Shown: piece by piece, positions 29,108 to 42,622 of the stretch
Position numbering within the stretch: position 1 is the stretch's first letter
Layout: each line of letters opens with the position of its first letter
Assembly: GCA_027459665.1 (NCBI GenBank)
Contig: DAIDHN010000023.1
Coordinates: 1 to 58,767, forward strand
Source: Chthonomonadaceae bacterium
GTDB lineage: Bacteria; Armatimonadota; Chthonomonadetes; Chthonomonadales; Chthonomonadaceae
DNA length: 58,767 nt
Direction of reading: 5' to 3'
Program-made: the position numbers and the translations under genes
Notes under the pieces: model-generated
The model's database searches: none
The model's input: only the letters and a program-made list of their open reading frames with translations
What the model was told of the DNA's origin: nothing

Positions 29108-29719
29108 CTAATTACGCAAAATATTTGCCTGTTTTCTGCTCATCCAGTCTACATGTCCATCTACAAAGGCAATGTTCGCACGATCAAGATGGCGATTCCA
29201 GGCAATCCCGCTCTTGTCTTCTACAGCATTTCTCTGCACCTGCTTGCTGTCTGAAAAAAGCAGCGTCTGTTCTGGCACAAGTATGCTTGAGGTTGCCAGA
29301 GAATTTGTATGCTTATTCATGGCATAGCCGTATACCTGTTTCATTGCGCTTCTGTAAGGCAGCTGTGCAGCAGGACAGTGCAAGGCATTCGGATTCATTC
29401 TGCTTCCCTTTTTTCCTGCTGTAATGTACACCGCTGCCATATCCATCCAGTGCACTGCCGGAGGCAGTTTCTCATCCCAGTCCAGTGAATACAAACGCAT
29501 TGCCACACCTACAGTGTGTTCATTGCTCATGCAGCGTTCTCTTAATAAATCTGATGGCAGTTTTATGAGCGCTGTATACAGCCAGAAAATAAAGCCAGAT
29601 GTTAAAACGAGAAACACGCCGCCGCAGCTCCATATAATTGCAGAACGCTTTCGGCGAACGGGCTTATCTGCAGCAGCAGTTCCTGTATCCTGAGCATGAG
29701 TTATTGCTTTTTTTGACAT
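29108..29719 (-). CDS. Membrane-anchored H-x9-DG (DUF1559-like) protein
   Basis: About 203 residues from the ATG at 29719. A single N-terminal membrane helix (AIIWSCGGVFLVLTSGFIFWLY) is preceded by basic residues; there is no classical prepilin leader cleavage site. The C-terminal RHLDRANIAFVDGHVDW contains His, nine residues, then Asp-Gly, the H-x9-DG signature of pseudopilin-like proteins abundant in Planctomycetes, Verrucomicrobia and Armatimonadota. Middle segments (HCPAAQLPYRS, GYAMNKHT) match that family. It likely faces the periplasm. The function of these proteins is not established. Confidence 0.8.
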   Translation of the reverse strand: MSKKAITHAQDTGTAAADKPVRRKRSAIIWSCGGVFLVLTSGFIFWLYTALIKLPSDLLRERCMSNEHTVGVAMRLYSLDWDEKLPPAVHWMDMAAVYITAGKKGSRMNPNALHCPAAQLPYRSAMKQVYGYAMNKHTNSLATSSILVPEQTLLFSDSKQVQRNAVEDKSGIAWNRHLDRANIAFVDGHVDWMSRKQANILRN

Positions 29720-29837
29720 GTGCTTTTCCGGTATTCTCCTTTTCGCACTAGATATTACGAAAAAAAACAGCGAACCTGGCCTTTTCAAGCACGCTTTCTG
29801 CAGCAAATTCGTAATAAACCACGGAAAGAGGAAACAG

Positions 29838-30647
29838 ATGAAACAAAAACTTAGAATAGGCTCAGTTCCTTACCTAAATGCAAAACCTATGGTCGACTGG
29901 TTTCACACTGGTGAATGCACTGTAGAAGCTGAAATCATTTACGATGTGCCTTCACACCTGGCTGCAATGCTGCGCCGCGGAGAGTTGGATGTCGCAAATG
30001 TATCGCTGTTTGAGGGCTTGCAAAACCCTTCTCTCATCATTGTGCCTCACGTATCTATCTCGGCAGACGGAGCGGTAAAAAGCGTCCGTCTCTTCTCTCG
30101 CGTACCGCTCAACGAGATAAAATCGGTGGCGCTCGATACCTCTTCCCTCACCTCATCGGCGCTTATGCGCATTCTGCTGCAAGAACACCTGAAAGTAAAG
30201 GCTGAGTGCATACACCACAAGCCAGACATAGAAGAGATGCTGCAGATATGCGACGCCGGCCTTATTATAGGTGATCTGAAACTCTTTCAGCTGCCAGCCA
30301 ATACAATCGTATACGATCTGGGGCAGGCATGGAAAGAACTGACAGACATGCCATTTATGTACGCCGCATGGCTTGCCAGAGAAGAAAGCTACTCACCAGA
30401 ACTCGCGGCAGTTCTTCAGGCGGCACGCAACTGGGGAATGCAGCGGCTGCCTGAACTGGCATTGCTCTGGTCGCAAAGAATGAACCTGCCGCTCGATTTG
30501 TGCAGTGACTATCTCTGCAATGTAATGGATTACACTCTCACTGCAAAGCATCTGAAAGCGGCGGAACTGTACCAGAGAAAGTGCTGTGAACATGGCCTGC
30601 TGCAATCGCTCATACCAATTCGCATGGGTGCTGCCCCTCAGATATGA
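29838..30647 (+). CDS. mqnA: Chorismate dehydratase (futalosine menaquinone pathway)
   Basis: About 269 residues from the ATG at 29838, with AGAGG a few bases upstream; the longer open frame is an artefact. RIGSVPYLNAKPM at the N-terminus, then LRRGELDVANVSLFEG and LIIGDLKLFQL, are characteristic of the MqnA periplasmic-binding-protein-like fold. It dehydrates chorismate to 3-enolpyruvylbenzoate, the first step of the futalosine route to menaquinone, implying menaquinone respiration. No other mqn gene is adjacent. It overlaps the convergent PLP gene by 10 bases. Confidence 0.93.
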   Translation: MKQKLRIGSVPYLNAKPMVDWFHTGECTVEAEIIYDVPSHLAAMLRRGELDVANVSLFEGLQNPSLIIVPHVSISADGAVKSVRLFSRVPLNEIKSVALDTSSLTSSALMRILLQEHLKVKAECIHHKPDIEEMLQICDAGLIIGDLKLFQLPANTIVYDLGQAWKELTDMPFMYAAWLAREESYSPELAAVLQAARNWGMQRLPELALLWSQRMNLPLDLCSDYLCNVMDYTLTAKHLKAAELYQRKCCEHGLLQSLIPIRMGAAPQI

Positions 30648-34196: not shown

Positions 34197-35210
34197 ATGT
34201 TCAAGGCATTGTTGGTTGGAGCAGGTGGAATGGGAAACGCCTGGGCACGAAACCTTCAGGCAAATTCTGATATGGTGAACATGGTTGGCTGGGTTGATAT
34301 TCGTGAAAACGCCGCAGCAGAATCTGCCGAGGCCATGAAACTGACGCTACAGTACACCGGTACAGACTTGCAAAAAGCGTTGAGAGTAACTCAGCCCGAC
34401 TTTTTGGTAGATGTTACTATCCCCGAAGCACATCGTGATGTTACTATCACTGCATTGAATGCAGGAGTGCATGTAATCGGAGAAAAACCGATGGCACATT
34501 CCATGCAGGCTGCCAGAGAAATGGTGCAGGCATCTGAAAAATCTGGCAAATTGTACATGGTGAGTCAGAGCCGCAGATACGATGGACGTCTGCATGCCTA
34601 TAAGAAACTTATAGTAGATCATATTGGAGACCTGGGCATTTTGAAGTCTGACTTTTATATCGGCGCACATTTTGGTGGTTTTCGAGACATCATGCCCCAT
34701 GTACTGGTTCTCGATATGGCAATACACACCTTTGACGCTGCCCGTTTTTTATGTGACCGAAACCCTCTGAATGTGTATTGCGAAGAGTTTAACCCTGCCT
34801 GGAGCTGGTACAAACAAGATTCAAGTGCTACTGCTCTGTTTGAAATGGATGGCGGTCTGCGTTATACCTACTGCGGTTCATGGAGCAGCGAAGGCAAAAA
34901 TACTTCATGGGAATCTGAATGGAGAGCCGTGGGAGCAGCGGGCACAGCCCTCTGGGATGGTGGGGATGACATTGTTGCAGACAGAGTAACTTCCAGCAAT
35001 GGATTCACCTCCAGCACCGCCGCTGAAACAGCACAGCCCATCCAGATAAAAGGCGGCATCAATGGCTCCCTGCATGACTTTCTCAATGCACTGCAAACGG
35101 GTTCTGTGCCAATGGGTGAATGCCATGACAATATCAAAAGCCTTGCCATGGTGTTTGCTGCCATCGAATCGGCTTCTACAGGCAGGCGAACGCCGGTTAC
35201 AGTTTGGTAA
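34197..35210 (+). CDS. Gfo/Idh/MocA family oxidoreductase (ThuB-like)
   Basis: 337 residues. GAGGMGNAW is the dinucleotide motif, GEKPMAHS the family signature, and MAIHTFDAARFL holds the conserved His-x3-Asp. GGGAG precedes the ATG. By analogy with ThuB it could oxidise a sugar to a 3-keto form while ThuA acts on the same pathway. Its end overlaps the convergent protease gene by 14 bases. It is only distantly similar to the Gfo/Idh/MocA protein at 28 kb. Confidence 0.9.
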   Translation: MFKALLVGAGGMGNAWARNLQANSDMVNMVGWVDIRENAAAESAEAMKLTLQYTGTDLQKALRVTQPDFLVDVTIPEAHRDVTITALNAGVHVIGEKPMAHSMQAAREMVQASEKSGKLYMVSQSRRYDGRLHAYKKLIVDHIGDLGILKSDFYIGAHFGGFRDIMPHVLVLDMAIHTFDAARFLCDRNPLNVYCEEFNPAWSWYKQDSSATALFEMDGGLRYTYCGSWSSEGKNTSWESEWRAVGAAGTALWDGGDDIVADRVTSSNGFTSSTAAETAQPIQIKGGINGSLHDFLNALQTGSVPMGECHDNIKSLAMVFAAIESASTGRRTPVTVW

Positions 35211-36732
35211 GGTTGTCTGTGTTCCATGCAGGGGCTTGCGGAAGCAGCGGAACATCCTCTGCTTTTTGCAGTGCCTTAAAACGCTCCTGCATGGACTGGG
35301 CATCCCCCTGCATAAGGTGCATGGTAAGTACTATAGTTTTGAAAAGGCGCAGGTATCTAAGCTTGGCAGACACTAACTCTCTTTGCTTTTCTTCTTGCGA
35401 AATAGCAGATTGTAAATCTTTATACTTTTGAAGGCAGGGTGAAAGCAGTTTTTTTCCGGTACTTGTTTGCAGCCACGCTGTAGCCTGCTGTACCGCTGCG
35501 TCATACGCTGTAGTGTTTGAGTTAAGCGAAGGGTATTTCTGTAGCAAGTGCTGTTTAGCCACTTTTCTGGCTGCCTCAAACAAGCTGTACTTCTCATCAA
35601 CCAGGGGAGAATCGGTATCAACTTTTTTCTGCTGAATAAACTGCTGATACAGAGAGTAAGCTGATCGCTCTCCATGCAAACCAAGCCTGGCAGCAAGCCC
35701 CTTCAGTGCTGCTTTCTGGGCCGGATCGGCATAAGCATATACTTTTTTTTCATCGGTCTGAAAAATATCGCTGTCTCGCAGCCCTGTCACATATCTGCGT
35801 AAAAAAAAGTCACTGGTACAGCAGGGAACATCTATTGATGGATCGTGAATAAGTGCATAGCAATAAGCTTCGTGCATGCTCACAACACCATTGTTGTCGT
35901 AATCAGCTCCTGTTACCTTCCTTCCAAGTCTGTCGCGGCCTCCAAGGGCGGCAAAAAAATAGCTTGTAAAATCATGATAATCAGCCTGATTGATTTCAGG
36001 GGTGCAGCCTGCGGCTTCCATGGTATTCACCGTGGCAAAAAAACCTGCCAGGTTTCTGCTGGCAAGTTCAGCGCCTGCATCGCCGTGCTTAAAAATCAGG
36101 TTGCCAAAAGCACCCGAAAAACATTGAACCATCACCACCACCAAGGGCACTCTCCGAGGCACAGCCTGTATGTCAGCAGATAACTGCTGCACGCTTAAAC
36201 CACCATGCTGTTTCCACAGATCGTAGTAATTGTTGTTTTGCCGGGAATTGTCGGGGCTGCCATGCCCTGTAAAATAAAGAAGCAGAGTTCCTGTCTGTTT
36301 GCCGGTTCTATACTGCTCTCCCAGCATGCCAAGCGCGTTTGCAATGCTTTTGTGGGTAGATGGACCATTCAGCACAGACCCTACAGAGGGTTTTCTAAAA
36401 CGTCTCGCATTCTTGCCCGAAAGGCTTCCGCTCCAAATCAAATTCAGATACTGTTCTCCTTTGCCAATGCCCTTCACGCCTGTATCATACAAAACAATGG
36501 GCTTTGCGGTTGATCCATTGGCAAACAGCACCTGTCGCACATCATTGAGAGGCAGCAGATGATTTAGATACCGCAAATTGCTTTCTATAGCTACCTGATT
36601 GTAATTGGGCTGCGGCCCTCCACCTACCAGCAAGGCAGTAACTGCAGGGTAAACAGAGGGTGTTTGCTGTGCATTTGCAATGCTGCAAACGCTGCCAAAC
36701 AGCAATGCCGCGGCAAGTTTATTGAACTTCAT
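35197..36732 (-). CDS. Secreted caspase/legumain-like (clan CD) cysteine protease with EF-hand loop
   Basis: 511 residues with a signal peptide (residues 1-21, ending IANA). The caspase-fold catalytic pair is visible: YFTGHGSPD gives His157 and VVVMVQCFSGAFG gives Cys204, each after a hydrophobic strand, as in legumain (C13) and metacaspases. ADYDNNGVVSMHEAY at about 276-290 has D277, D279, N281, G282, S285 and E288 in the exact spacing of a 12-residue EF-hand calcium loop. The C-terminal 200 residues are helical and of unknown fold. By family it would cleave after Asn/Asp, Arg or Lys; calcium control is plausible by analogy with metacaspases. ATGA overlap with the BrkB gene upstream; the row is rph, rdgB, yihY, then this gene. 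Confidence 0.82.
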   Translation of the reverse strand: MKFNKLAAALLFGSVCSIANAQQTPSVYPAVTALLVGGGPQPNYNQVAIESNLRYLNHLLPLNDVRQVLFANGSTAKPIVLYDTGVKGIGKGEQYLNLIWSGSLSGKNARRFRKPSVGSVLNGPSTHKSIANALGMLGEQYRTGKQTGTLLLYFTGHGSPDNSRQNNNYYDLWKQHGGLSVQQLSADIQAVPRRVPLVVVMVQCFSGAFGNLIFKHGDAGAELASRNLAGFFATVNTMEAAGCTPEINQADYHDFTSYFFAALGGRDRLGRKVTGADYDNNGVVSMHEAYCYALIHDPSIDVPCCTSDFFLRRYVTGLRDSDIFQTDEKKVYAYADPAQKAALKGLAARLGLHGERSAYSLYQQFIQQKKVDTDSPLVDEKYSLFEAARKVAKQHLLQKYPSLNSNTTAYDAAVQQATAWLQTSTGKKLLSPCLQKYKDLQSAISQEEKQRELVSAKLRYLRLFKTIVLTMHLMQGDAQSMQERFKALQKAEDVPLLPQAPAWNTDNLTKL

Positions 36733-37595
36733 AACGTCTTTCCTGTATTCATTCGTTTTTGCAGATCGGCGCTAAACTCAGCGCCAAACAGCAAAACGAC
36801 CATGCTGAAGTAAACCCATACAAACAAAACCATCACACTGCTTAACGAACCATATAGAAAGTTATACGCATTGGTGCGGCTAATGTAATACTCAAACATC
36901 CGTTTGGATATCTCCCATAAAACAGAGGCGGTCAGCGATCCATACATCGCTGGCCACGGCTCCACTTCACAACAGGGTAGAACCCGGTAAAGCCAGTTGA
37001 ACAAAACAAGCGACAGCAGCAGTGGAAGAAGCACTTCAGCGAAAAGGTGCAGCGTACTTTCCAGCAGCGGCGGCATGCCTGCATGAAAAAGATGGGAGGC
37101 AAATGCGCTCAGTAATATATTTGCTCCTATCAATAAAATAGCTGCAAGTGAGCATTCCAGTGCCTTCAGCCGCCTTGTCCACCACCTTCGTCTCTCTGGC
37201 ACCTCCCAAACCCCATTCATGGCAGGAAACAGAGCCATAAAAGTAGTCTGGGCGCTGTACAGCAATCCAGCCGCTCCTATTCCTCCCAGCACACCGCTGT
37301 GCGCAAGCACTCTTTCCAGGTTTGTTCTCATAAAACCTGTTTGAAGCGGAATAAACATGCTGATAGAGTGCATCACTCCATTCAGTGCTGTCTCAGTGCC
37401 GCCAGTAACATATCCCAGCAGAGATATGCCGGCAACCAGCAGCGGTACAAACGATAGAATAACGCCATATGCACAGGCGCTCGCCATCAAGGCATCCTGA
37501 TGAACCAGAAAAGCTCGCACAACCCGTACCAATCGGGCAAGAAAACTCCTCGCATGCTTCAGTTCCACATATTCCCGGTGTTTTTCTCTTGCCAT
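36729..37595 (-). CDS. YihY/BrkB-family inner-membrane protein
   Basis: 288 residues with six hydrophobic segments. Family signatures include DALMASACAYGVILSFVPLL in the first helix region, YSAQTTFMALFPAMNGVW and the C-terminal helix YGSLSSVMVLFVWVYFSMVVLLFGAEFS. Annotated variously as ribonuclease BN/BrkB, but it is an integral membrane protein and RNase activity is not supported. A transport or envelope role is likely. Its TGA overlaps the protease ATG; a 38-base gap separates it from rdgB upstream. Confidence 0.9.
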   Translation of the reverse strand: MAREKHREYVELKHARSFLARLVRVVRAFLVHQDALMASACAYGVILSFVPLLVAGISLLGYVTGGTETALNGVMHSISMFIPLQTGFMRTNLERVLAHSGVLGGIGAAGLLYSAQTTFMALFPAMNGVWEVPERRRWWTRRLKALECSLAAILLIGANILLSAFASHLFHAGMPPLLESTLHLFAEVLLPLLLSLVLFNWLYRVLPCCEVEPWPAMYGSLTASVLWEISKRMFEYYISRTNAYNFLYGSLSSVMVLFVWVYFSMVVLLFGAEFSADLQKRMNTGKTL

Positions 37596-37633: not shown

Positions 37634-38233
37634 TCAGTCCCTCAGTTTCTCAATAATGCAGGCAAGGGCTTTGCCGCGGTGACTGATGCGATGTTTTTCT
37701 TCTGGGCTAAGTTCTGCCATGCAGCATTGCAGGTCTGGCAGCCAGAATACAGGATCATAGCCAAAACCACCCTGCCCGCGTTTTTCAGATGCAATTACTC
37801 CCTCACAGCTGCCCAGGCATTCAAATAAGCTGCCATCACGGTATGCCAGCGCCACTGCACATTGAAACCGGCAGGTTCTCTGTTTTACATCTAGACCATG
37901 CAGCTCTTTCAGAATGTAATCCATTTTTACATCAAACGAAGTCTCCGCCCCAAGAAATCTGTGCGAATGCACCCCTGGCGCCCCGCCTAAAGCATCTACA
38001 ACCAGCCCTCCGTCATCTGCAAGCGAAGCCAAACCGGTTTGCTTCAGAGCTGCGAGAGCTTTTAAACGTGCATTCTCCTCAAAGGTTTCCCCGGTTTCCT
38101 CAACCTCAACCCAGTTGGAAAAGTCAGCCAGTGTAACCAGCTTTATACCAGGCAGGGCAGCACTTAATATCTGCATCATCTCCCTGCCTTTTTTCTGGTT
38201 TGTGGTTGCAATCAAAAGTTCCGAAAGCGTCAT
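37634..38233 (-). CDS. rdgB: XTP/dITP pyrophosphatase (HAM1/RdgB)
   Basis: 199 residues. [13 protein letters not shown] at the N-terminus, [32 protein letters not shown] and GFGYDPVFW are family motifs. In place of the common ADDSGL the metal/phosphate loop reads ADDGGL, which retains the acidic pair. It removes deaminated purine triphosphates. It overlaps the rph stop by ATGA, a widespread rph-rdgB pairing. Confidence 0.94.
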
Positions 38234-38955
38234 ATGTTTTTTTCCAGGGCATTTCGCTGCAGTTTGAACAACGCATCCAGGCCAAGCTGAGCAATATCCA
38301 GCAGCCTGTTCAGCCTGTTTCTATCATACGGAGAACCCTCTGCAGTGCCCTGCACTTCTACATAACGCCCCTTATCTGTGGCCACTACATTCATGTCTAC
38401 TGCGCACCGATGATCTTCTTCATAACAAAGGTCAAGCAGTTCATCCGAACCAACTACACCAACGCTAATGGCAGCAACTTGCGCAGTAAGCGGTATGCGT
38501 GCAATATGACCCTGTTTTACCAATAGGCGGCAGCATTCAGCAAGGGCTACATAGGCTCCTGTAATGGCAGCACAGCGTGTTCCGCCATCCGCCTGCAGCA
38601 CATCGCAGTCTATCCATATCGTACGTTCGCCAAGCACAGGCATTTCCAGTACGGCGCGCAGGCTCCGGCCAATCAAACGCTGTATCTCCATGGTGCGGCC
38701 GCCAGGTCCGCTCCTGTTTTCTCTGGGGGTGCGCGTGTTGGTAGAACGAGGAAGCATGCTGTACTCAGCGGTCAGCCAGCCCATCTCCCCCTCCTGCTTG
38801 CGAAATGGAGGCAGTTTCTCTTCAACTGATGCAGTACAGATAACACGGGTCTTTCCCATCTCAATCAAACATGACCCCTCAGCATTGGGCATAAAACCTG
38901 CAGTTATCTTTGCACTTCGCATCTGATTACTGCCACGCCCATCAAACCTCGACAT
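38230..38955 (-). CDS. rph: Ribonuclease PH
   Basis: 241 residues, full length. The N-terminal [23 protein letters not shown], the EYSMLPRST segment, [10 protein letters not shown] and [20 protein letters not shown] are RNase PH motifs. It is a phosphorolytic 3'-5' exoribonuclease trimming tRNA ends, acting as a hexamer. An AGGAGAAAGC tract lies before the ATG. It is the first gene of the four-gene minus-strand row ending with the caspase-like protease. Confidence 0.96.
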
Positions 38956-39256
38956 AAGCTTTCTCCTTTTACATCACTCTTTACTCATAGTATAGTTTCT
39001 TCATCGCAAAATGTTTCTCCTGCTGTTTCAGGCAGACACAAAGGCAATAAATCTACTCATATGCCGCTTGCACCAATCTCTGCCCGCAAACTCGGGCTGT
39101 AATGATAAACATGCGCAGCGCTCAAAACAGTCTGACTGTATACCAGGTTGTAAACTTATTTGCACTCTGCCCATTGAATCTATTGACAATCTATCAGTAG
39201 TATGTTATCCTGTACTTGTCACTGTATGTAGTAAATCTTCCAATGAGATTGAAACA
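38956..39256. other. Divergent intergenic region rph / nrdR
   Basis: About 300 bases. A longer open frame extends nrdR upstream through it but has no protein-like conservation. The only element I can support is the nrdR promoter at 39183-39211. I do not see a convincing NrdR box (paired 16-mers near the -10) or a cobalamin riboswitch. Confidence 0.5.
39183..39211 (+). promoter_or_regulatory. Sigma-70-type promoter for nrdR-nrdJ
   Basis: Perfect -35 TTGACA (39183-39188), 17-base spacer, -10 TATCCT (39206-39211). Predicted start near 39218, leader about 40 bases before the nrdR ATG. This is one of the clearest promoters in the window. Confidence 0.7.
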
Positions 39257-39727
39257 ATGAAATGTCCGTTTTGTGGTCAGCAAAACCGTGATCGCGTACT
39301 TGAAACCCGCACCCTCCATGAGGGGGCAGCCATCAAACGCCGACGGGAATGCGAAGCGTGCAAACGACGTTTCACAACTCTGGAAGAAATCGAAGAGATG
39401 CAGCTCTATGTCGTTAAAAACGACTCCAGGCGAGAACCCTTTGACCGAAAAAAAATTATCCACGGCATGCAGCTCGCATGCAAGGGAAGAAGCATCAGCC
39501 TGGAAACTCTGGACGAGGCAGCGCAGGAATTGGAAAGAATGCTTTACAATCGCCTGCAGCGAGAAGTCTCCTCAAGAGAAGTAGGCGAAATGGTTATGGA
39601 AAGCCTGCGCGCACTCGATCAGGTGGCTTACGTACGCTTCGCATCTGTTTACCGACAATTTGAAGACGCAACACAGTTCAGAGAGATTGTAAACCTTCTT
39701 CGGCGCAAAGACTCTAGAAAAGTCTGA
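39257..39727 (+). CDS. nrdR: Transcriptional repressor NrdR
   Basis: About 156 residues from the ATG at 39257. The zinc ribbon is MKCPFCGQQNRD...CEACKRRFTT (Cys pairs at both ends) and the ATP-cone follows from VVKNDSRREPFDRKKIIHGM. NrdR senses ATP/dATP and represses ribonucleotide reductase operons. It lies 42 bases before nrdJ under the same promoter, so it would control its own and the reductase's expression. The Shine-Dalgarno is weak (GAGATTG). Confidence 0.96.
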   Translation: MKCPFCGQQNRDRVLETRTLHEGAAIKRRRECEACKRRFTTLEEIEEMQLYVVKNDSRREPFDRKKIIHGMQLACKGRSISLETLDEAAQELERMLYNRLQREVSSREVGEMVMESLRALDQVAYVRFASVYRQFEDATQFREIVNLLRRKDSRKV

Positions 39728-39769
39728 AGGTTTACACATCTTCATCATTTCATCCAGGAGGGATTAGTA

Positions 39770-42622
39770 GTGAGCCAGGAACCCACTCCAAACCAAATCA
39801 ACCTAGATACCGTACTGCAGCAAACTGAAAACAATACTGCCGAACAACCCAAAGTTGCAGTCAGAACCAAAATCGTACCCGCTAAAAAGAAAAGTGCCCG
39901 AGGCGAAGGCGCGCCTGGTCTCACTGTAATACGCCGCTACACAAAACCTGGAGAAGACATCTATGGCACCGTGGAATGGGAACTTCGGGATGCAGTGATC
40001 AGCAACGAGAGGGGAGAAAAAGTATTCGAACAGCACAACTGTGAAATCCCCAAATCGTGGTCGCAGCTTGCCACCAATGTAGTCGTCTCCAAGTACTTCA
40101 GAGGGCATGTTGGTACACCCGAAAGAGAAACAAGCGTTCGCCAGCTCATACACCGGGTAGCCGATACCATGGCTGATTGGGGACGCAATATGGACTACTT
40201 TGCCACCCCGGAAGATGCACAAGCCTTTCAGGATGAACTTTCATACATTCTGCTGAACCAGATGGCGGCTTTCAACTCACCGGTCTGGTTCAATGTAGGC
40301 CTGCCCGACCAGCCCAGCCCACAATGCTCTGCATGCTTCATAAACAGCGTCGAAGACACCATGGAGTCGATACTCACTCTCGCGAAAACAGAAGGAATGC
40401 TGTTCAAATTTGGCTCGGGCACAGGCACAAACCTGTCTACTATACGTTCTTCCCGCGAACCCCTGCAGGGAGGCGGCACTGCATCTGGCCCAATTTCGTT
40501 TATGAGAGGGTTCGATCAGTTTGCAGGCGCCATCAAAAGCGGTGGTAAAACGCGCCGTGCTGCAAAAATGGTAATTCTCAACATAGACCACCCAGATGTA
40601 GAAGATTTTATTGTGTGCAAAAGCCAGGAAGAAAAAAAGGCATGGGCGCTCATTGAAGCAGGATACAGCGGCATGTTCAATGTGCCAGGAGGCGCATACG
40701 ACAGCGTTAATTTTCAAAACGCAAACCATTCTGTGCGCGTAAGCGACGCTTTCATGAGAGCGGTAGAGGAAGACTCACACTGGAAAACACGCAATGTTCT
40801 GACAGGCAAAACCGCACATGATTACAAAGCCCGCAGCTTGATGCACAGCATTGCCGAGGCAGCATGGGTATGCGGCGACCCAGGCATGCAGTATGACACA
40901 ACCATCAACAGATGGCACACCTGCAAAACCACAGACCGCATACATGCTTCCAATCCCTGTTCTGAATACATGTTCCTCAATGACAGTGCATGCAACCTGG
41001 CTTCTCTCAACCTGATGAAATTTCGAACTCCAGATGGAGAATTCGATATAGAGAGCTTTCAGCACGCATGCAGAATACTCATCACTGCACAGGAAATCAT
41101 TGTAGACAATGCCTCTTACCCAACAGAACGTATAGGGGAAAACAGTCACGACTACAGACCACTCGGTCTGGGATATGCCAACCTGGGAGCGCTGCTGATG
41201 GCGCGAGGGCTTCCCTACGACAGCCCAGCTGGCAGAGCTTACTGTGCAGCCATTACTGCCATAATGACTGGCACTGCCTATGACCAGTCGAGCATTATTG
41301 CCAGAGACCACGGCTGGACTTTCAACGGCTATGCTAAAAACAGAGAATCTTTCCTTGAAGTAATGCGAATGCATCGTACAGCCGTAGAAGACATTGCTCA
41401 AGACCTTACCCCTGCCTATATGCTGAAAGCGGCCAGGCAGTGCTGGGATGAAGCGATTGCATCTGGCGAACTGCACGGCTATAGAAACGCACAGGCTACC
41501 GTACTCGCCCCTACTGGCACTATAGGGTTTCTGATGGACTGCGATACCACTGGCATAGAACCAGATATTGCCATTGTAAAGTACAAAAACCTTGTTGGCG
41601 GCGGGGTGATGAAAATTGTAAACAATACCATCTCAGAAGCCCTGCTCAGACTGAAATATACCGGCGAACAAATCACCGAAATAGTCGCTTACATCGACGA
41701 ACAGGATACTATAGAGGGCGCACTTCATCTGAAACCAGAACACCTGGAGGTATTTGACTGCGCATTCAAGCCTGCAAACGGCAGCCGCTCTATTCACTAT
41801 ATGGGCCATGTGCGTATGATGGCGGCAGCACAACCCTTTATTTCCGGCGCAATTTCCAAAACAGTCAACATGCCGCACGAAGCCACCTCACAGGAAATAA
41901 TGAGTGTATACCAGGAAGGCTGGAGGCTGGGTCTCAAAGCGATTGCAATCTATCGCGATGGCTCAAAACGCACTCAGCCGCTCACTACAAAGCGAAGTGA
42001 TTCACCTGCAGAGGCTGCAGCATTACAGCAGCCTGCTTCTCAGGAAGCAGCCTCCGATAACCGCCAGCCTCTGCGCAAAAAACTGCCGGATGAAAGACAG
42101 GCGGTAACCCATAAATTCAGTATTGCAGGCCATGAAGGATACATCACAGTGGGCCTCTATCCTGACGGGCAGCCCGGAGAGATATTCCTTACCATGAGCA
42201 AGGAAGGTTCTACTATCTCTGGTCTGATGGATTCTTTCGCCACTGCCATTTCGCTGGCTCTTCAATACGGTGTGCCGCTGCAAACCCTGGTTGATAAATT
42301 TGCCCATACACGCTATGAGCCATCTGGCTTTACAAACAATCCAGATGTGCGCATTGCACGCTCACTCTCAGATTACATATTCAGATGGCTGGGTATAAAA
42401 TTTCTCAACCGTGAACTTTCGCCAGAGCCGCCCACACTGTCAAAGGTGCCCGTAAACGAAACAACCTCTGCAGGCGCACAGGAAACCAGTCTGGAAGACA
42501 ACCTGAGTACATTTCAAAATCAGTCTGATGCGCCTATCTGTACAGACTGTGGAAGCCTTATGGTACGCAATGGAGCATGCTATAAATGTCTCAACTGCGG
42601 ATCTGTGTTCGGCTGCTCCTAA
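39770..42622 (+). CDS. nrdJ: Adenosylcobalamin-dependent (class II) ribonucleoside-diphosphate reductase
   Basis: 950 residues starting at a GTG with AGGAGGG seven bases upstream. The alpha/beta barrel contains MAAFNSPVWFNVG, CSACFIN (first redox Cys), the NPCSEYMFLNDSACNLASLNL radical-Cys loop, and APTGTIGF. The C-terminus ends in a CxxC-x9-CxxC zinc ribbon (CTDCGSLMVRNGACYKCLNC) that re-reduces the active site. It makes deoxyribonucleotides from NDPs using adenosylcobalamin and needs no oxygen, which suits an organism meeting varying oxygen. Together with MetH it makes this genome strongly B12-dependent. Confidence 0.97.
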   Translation: MSQEPTPNQINLDTVLQQTENNTAEQPKVAVRTKIVPAKKKSARGEGAPGLTVIRRYTKPGEDIYGTVEWELRDAVISNERGEKVFEQHNCEIPKSWSQLATNVVVSKYFRGHVGTPERETSVRQLIHRVADTMADWGRNMDYFATPEDAQAFQDELSYILLNQMAAFNSPVWFNVGLPDQPSPQCSACFINSVEDTMESILTLAKTEGMLFKFGSGTGTNLSTIRSSREPLQGGGTASGPISFMRGFDQFAGAIKSGGKTRRAAKMVILNIDHPDVEDFIVCKSQEEKKAWALIEAGYSGMFNVPGGAYDSVNFQNANHSVRVSDAFMRAVEEDSHWKTRNVLTGKTAHDYKARSLMHSIAEAAWVCGDPGMQYDTTINRWHTCKTTDRIHASNPCSEYMFLNDSACNLASLNLMKFRTPDGEFDIESFQHACRILITAQEIIVDNASYPTERIGENSHDYRPLGLGYANLGALLMARGLPYDSPAGRAYCAAITAIMTGTAYDQSSIIARDHGWTFNGYAKNRESFLEVMRMHRTAVEDIAQDLTPAYMLKAARQCWDEAIASGELHGYRNAQATVLAPTGTIGFLMDCDTTGIEPDIAIVKYKNLVGGGVMKIVNNTISEALLRLKYTGEQITEIVAYIDEQDTIEGALHLKPEHLEVFDCAFKPANGSRSIHYMGHVRMMAAAQPFISGAISKTVNMPHEATSQEIMSVYQEGWRLGLKAIAIYRDGSKRTQPLTTKRSDSPAEAAALQQPASQEAASDNRQPLRKKLPDERQAVTHKFSIAGHEGYITVGLYPDGQPGEIFLTMSKEGSTISGLMDSFATAISLALQYGVPLQTLVDKFAHTRYEPSGFTNNPDVRIARSLSDYIFRWLGIKFLNRELSPEPPTLSKVPVNETTSAGAQETSLEDNLSTFQNQSDAPICTDCGSLMVRNGACYKCLNCGSVFGCS

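Follow-up and report, generated by a model that had tools for sequence, protein, structure and literature searches.

The gene analysed here lies on the minus strand at positions 35197-36732 of the window, by which we mean the whole 58,767-nt stretch of Chthonomonadaceae DNA under study, and it encodes a 511-residue protein assigned by its open reading frame, fold and family to the clan-CD (legumain/caspase-fold) cysteine peptidases. These coordinates agree exactly with those given in an earlier note made from the sequence alone. The row in which the gene stands, all on the minus strand, is headed by rph, encoding RNase PH (38230-38955; PF01138 and PF03725), followed by rdgB, encoding a Ham1 NTP pyrophosphatase (37634-38233; PF01725, E 1.8e-59), and a gene for a BrkB/YihY membrane protein (36729-37595; PF03631, E 1.8e-48), so that the proposed rph-rdgB-BrkB order is borne out by Pfam matches. 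The protease ATG and the BrkB stop codon share 4 bp (ATGA), and the source genome contains a single copy of the protease family. Elsewhere in the window, the plus strand carries nrdR with a class II (B12-dependent) ribonucleotide reductase immediately after it (39011-42622), an ordinary regulator-target pair, and a VitK2_biosynth family protein of menaquinone biosynthesis (29718-30647).

Conservation was assessed in a set of 81 sequences comprising the window protein and 80 relatives, the latter retained from 172 relatives confirmed by an alignment query of GTDB contigs. The window protein begins with a predicted Sec signal peptide, read from the sequence itself (residues 1-21, MKFNKLAAALLFGSVCSIANA; 36670-36732), and a hydrophobic N-terminal stretch is found in 76 of the 78 sequences with a readable N-terminus; the protease is thus probably exported by a Sec-type leader, as the earlier note had held. 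The catalytic domain spans residues 29-318 (35779-36648), as delimited by alignment and by fold matches that start at residues 28-30. Within it, His157 (YFTGHG; 36262-36264) is present in 80/80 covered sequences and Cys204 (MVQCFSG; 36121-36123) in 81/81; both are in register with the catalytic residues of GSU0716 and metacaspase-4, and in the model each comes after a predicted strand (residues 149-156 and 197-202, respectively). The dyad suggested previously is therefore real, and this conservation points to His157 and Cys204 as the catalytic residues. A second invariant cysteine, Cys243 (AAGCT; 36004-36006; 81/81), sits beside a poorly ordered loop of the model, with pLDDT below 50 at residues 237-242. 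Shortly after this motif, residue 249 (35986-35988) is Glu in 77/81 sequences and Gln in the window protein, a difference that may alter specificity provided that the residue lines the S1 pocket. The remaining features are a DxDxDG (EF-hand-type) loop at residues 277-288 (35869-35904) with an exit helix at residues 286-296, defined by conservation, the model and a shared C13 alignment column; a variable helical insert at about residues 361-440 (35413-35652), recognized by length differences among members; and a conserved terminal helix pair at about residues 455-495 (35248-35370), which includes R459 and E492 and is delimited by conservation and fold alignments. The residues invariant across all 81 sequences are C204, C243, R268, D277, E288, A289, D301 and T306.

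The AlphaFold2 model of the protease (pLDDT 87.6, pTM 0.87) shows the caspase-type alpha/beta fold of clan CD (Z 15-18) with the His-Gly...Cys order of that clan, and the dyad in register with known enzymes, which upholds the caspase-fold context proposed for it. The closest fold is that of legumain (4n6o; Z 18.4 over 219 residues, 3.3 A), followed by metacaspase-4 (6w8r; Z 17.4), GPI-transamidase subunit K, PIG-K (7w72; Z 16.4), GSU0716 (Z 15.6) and caspase-8 (Z 15.3); plant ligases scored Z about 18. Foldseek alone was marginal, with a best E of 1.1e-3. When the PDB was searched with a profile of the catalytic domain, GSU0716 (E 0.0017) and metacaspase-4 (E 0.027) were recovered with His and Cys in register; a phmmer search of the PDB with the single window sequence returned only noise.

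No Pfam or NCBIfam model matches the window protein above its cut-off. For family C13 (PF01650) it has no hit at E<=1, and 24 of 40 family members match this model at E<=0.1 (best 2.2e-7). For C14 (PF00656) the window protein likewise has no hit, and matches elsewhere in the family are weak (13/40 members, best 6e-5). The best curated match is to NF047832 (caspase, EACC1-associated), which covers the His-Cys half in 15/19 members (best 1.2e-8), with the window protein scoring 22.7 bits against a cut-off of 140 bits. Profile homology does connect the family to C13: hhalign against five bacterial C13-type proteins, several of which exceed the Pfam C13 curated cut-off, gave 99.6% at E 1.2e-23. 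The best reading is that the protease lineage adjoins family C13 (legumain) within clan CD. With legumain and PIG-K it shares the clan-CD fold (Z 16-18) and the HG and QC-x-SG motifs, and with the bacterial C13-type proteins (L152-L154 and L167-L169) it also shares the DxDxDG loop in the same column. It differs from legumain in being only about 12-14% identical, and from C13 in its own N-terminal part, its GGGP-N-IESN motif, the invariant Cys243, the variable insert and the terminal helix pair. The C14 orthocaspases and metacaspases (GSU0716, AtMCA4 and Yca1) resemble it in fold and in the register of the dyad, but have DSC or DAC at the catalytic cysteine where the family of the window protein has VQC. 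A PADLOC match to LmuB (E 0.0099) was rejected as below any credible level, and a role in a defence system was dropped, there being no conserved defence neighbour.

The family is widespread in bacteria yet so far undescribed; no paper on it or its biochemistry was found in the open-access literature searched. Matches, mostly full length and about 40% identical, occur in 26 of 61 genomes of relatives of the source organism, and a broader draw of Armatimonadota gave profile matches in 36/151 genomes. Judged from record titles, members occur in Armatimonadota (Chthonomonas and others), Verrucomicrobiota, Planctomycetota, Cyanobacteria (Calothrix and Chamaesiphon), Sorangium and an acidobacterium. 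In a quick tree of 40 catalytic domains, one half is rich in Armatimonadota and the other belongs to Planctomycetota, Verrucomicrobiota and Cyanobacteria, the phyla being mixed in places. No match came from a plasmid search. Two genomes of one Armatimonadota family (G087 and G152, family f24) have several copies each, compared to the one copy in the window genome. Capsulimonas-type members (L158, 1433-3451, and L156, 1440-3668) have a C-terminal extension, which in L158 is a Pfam BSP domain (peptidase of plants and bacteria; E 1.7e-18) and in L156 is near-identical; by their domain matches these members are legumain-like proteases fused to a putative metallopeptidase.

The earlier note described a 12-residue EF-hand loop after the dyad, and this loop is present with the residues listed there, conserved, and not a product of chance. 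Residues 277-288 (DYDNNGVVSMHE) read D277-x-D279-x-N281-G282-x-V284-S285-xx-E288, a motif that arose in 3 of 20,000 random shuffles of the protein. D277 and E288 are found in 81/81 sequences and the whole canonical loop in 65/81. In the 16 non-canonical loops it is mostly the position 6 glycine or the position 3 ligand that is missing, and never the first Asp or the twelfth Glu; the glycine is absent in Sorangium and most cyanobacterial members and the position 3 ligand in a few members. Judged from these substitutions, Ca2+ binding may not be universal in the family. In the model, which holds no metal, the loop lies outside any buried strand, as a coil of pLDDT about 93-95 that ends at the exit helix.

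Compared with a canonical EF-hand, the protein has the 12-residue DxDxDG loop with Glu12, but not the flanking helix-loop-helix, which is usually paired. Here there is a single loop with an exit helix only, and no helix adjoins its entering side, the previous helix (residues 255-264) ending 12 residues upstream. Among PDB entries, a true EF-hand protein is weakly matched by the loop region (1jfj, E 0.08). It resembles isolated DxDxDG or EF-hand-like loops in having D1, D/N3, D/N5, G6, a hydrophobic residue at position 8 and E12, and differs from them in being single and inside an enzyme core. The same loop occurs at the same place in other peptidases. Among distant Armatimonadota relatives recruited by the family profile, several of which are C13 proteins above the curated Pfam cut-off, all five of the distinct C13 relatives inspected have D-x-[NS]-x-[DN]-G with a conserved Glu after it. 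The segment that precedes the loop in these relatives is F-xx-(A)AL, as in the protease family, and hhalign of the family against the C13-type group places HG, QC and DxDxDG in shared columns. Immediately behind the FT helix, three Armatimonadota C14 proteins (L147, L150 and L162) have a loop of the D-x-[DN]-x-[DN]-G type, the strict loop being found in 2/18 local C14 proteins, and EF-hand motifs have been reported in seven archaeal orthocaspases (PMC6426788). Because bacterial C13 and some C14 proteins carry it likewise, the loop does not stand as an extra EF-hand domain; on these alignments it is best seen as an old, integral metal site of the second half of the catalytic domain.

The C-terminus had been described as 200 helical residues with no known domain. 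No domain was indeed recognized: folded alone the region is predicted with pLDDT 91.5, and its comparison to known structures gave no convincing relative (best Foldseek E 0.58, best Z 7.3). A Z of 7.3 between long helices reflects a common arrangement only, and no fold was therefore assigned; a Pfam HOASN match (E 0.029) was rejected as below a credible level. The description does not hold for a uniform tail, as the middle part (residues ~361-440) is variable and the last two helices are conserved. The insert is 80 residues in long members and 10-15 in the Sorangium, cyanobacterial and acidobacterial members, and matches to short Armatimonadota members jump profile positions of about 382-456. 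These short members (Sorangium, cyanobacteria, an acidobacterium and several Armatimonadota) retain the terminal helix pair, and R459 and E492 are present in 79/81 sequences, the remaining two being gaps. Fold alignments to clan-CD structures extend to residues 496-506, which would fit terminal helices that pack with the core.

Taken together, we consider it probable that the gene encodes an exported legumain-like clan-CD cysteine endopeptidase, of a lineage next to C13, with a p10-like half held by Ca2+. After removal of the signal peptide, Cys204 would attack the peptide bond of the substrate with His157 as its general base/acid. The D277-E288 loop, between helices 255-264 and 286-296 of the p10-like half, would bind one Ca2+ that fixes this half, such that activity would depend on envelope or environmental Ca2+ chiefly for stability. 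The terminal helix pair would pack on the core, and the insert before it, which bears a loose resemblance to the C-terminal helical domain of legumain, may be a cap, zymogen or docking element specific to its lineage. What the analysis shows directly is the predicted fold, the conserved dyad and loop, the homology to bacterial C13 proteins that have this loop, the hydrophobic leader and the modular C-terminus; we infer catalysis, export, Ca2+ binding and its effect, and how the C-terminal parts pack and act. A Ca2+ requirement is plausible by analogy, as several clan-CD families are Ca2+-dependent: such dependence is documented for C11 and metacaspases, and for gingipains as Ca2+ in all active forms (PMC4357240).

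This dependence of metacaspases and C11 (PMC4357240) would also suit a Ca2+-gated protease, the reading behind the calcium-controlled processing suggested in the earlier note, in which the loop is a regulatory switch and Ca2+ triggers autoprocessing or frees the helical C-terminus. The endpoints of the loop are conserved as strongly as the dyad, and the helical C-terminal region is placed like the inhibitory domain of legumain. However, the protein has one site with no adjacent entering helix, unlike paired EF-hand sensors, and no processing site was identified. Short members without the helical insert also keep the loop, which is hence not tied to that insert; that the loop is invariant whether members are short or long speaks for a structural role rather than for gating of the C-terminal part. 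A structural Ca2+ site accounts for such invariance no less well than a regulatory site does, and we regard gating as unlikely. A broader proposal, in which a phylum-spanning group of exported, Ca2+-switched legumain relatives would use DxDxDG to couple envelope Ca2+ sensing to limited proteolysis, with the insert as a removable inhibitor that evolved independently of the legumain C-terminal domain, is in our view distinctly doubtful.

The likeness of the fold to PIG-K (Z 16.4) and plant ligases (Z about 18), together with probable export, could also point to a transpeptidase or ligase like GPI-transamidase or the plant asparaginyl ligases, which would join exported proteins to a surface acceptor rather than degrade them. 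Since rank by clan-CD fold does not split hydrolases from ligases, and no conserved partner or acceptor genes lie nearby, we think such an activity very unlikely.

Translational coupling to BrkB had been put forward as an unusual pairing. The 4-bp overlap itself is present in the window, but most homologues are without BrkB, an outcome that the earlier note had itself named as counting against its proposal, and no meaningful partnership emerges. A search for the pair in other genomes found BrkB upstream of the protease in 5/24 Armatimonadota loci and no BrkB relative beside the protease in loci from other phyla, where no neighbour recurs beyond close relatives and the neighbours are unrelated. 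rdgB is a commoner neighbour (8/24 Armatimonadota loci). The BrkB pairing is local gene order. That the protease and BrkB work together as a single functional unit in the rph-rdgB-BrkB operon, with BrkB as membrane partner, substrate or exporter, is extremely improbable: the ATGA overlap recurs in L050 and L068, but rdgB directly adjoins the protease without BrkB in L034, L041 and L045, and the protease family is far wider than the pair.

In conclusion, the window protein lies outside the Pfam C13 and C14 and NCBIfam models, yet its relatives in at least six bacterial phyla show equal constraint on their catalytic and calcium-loop residues. The shared position of the loop suggests that the DxDxDG site is early and integral to bacterial legumain-type peptidases, which bears on the frequent Ca2+-dependence of clan CD.
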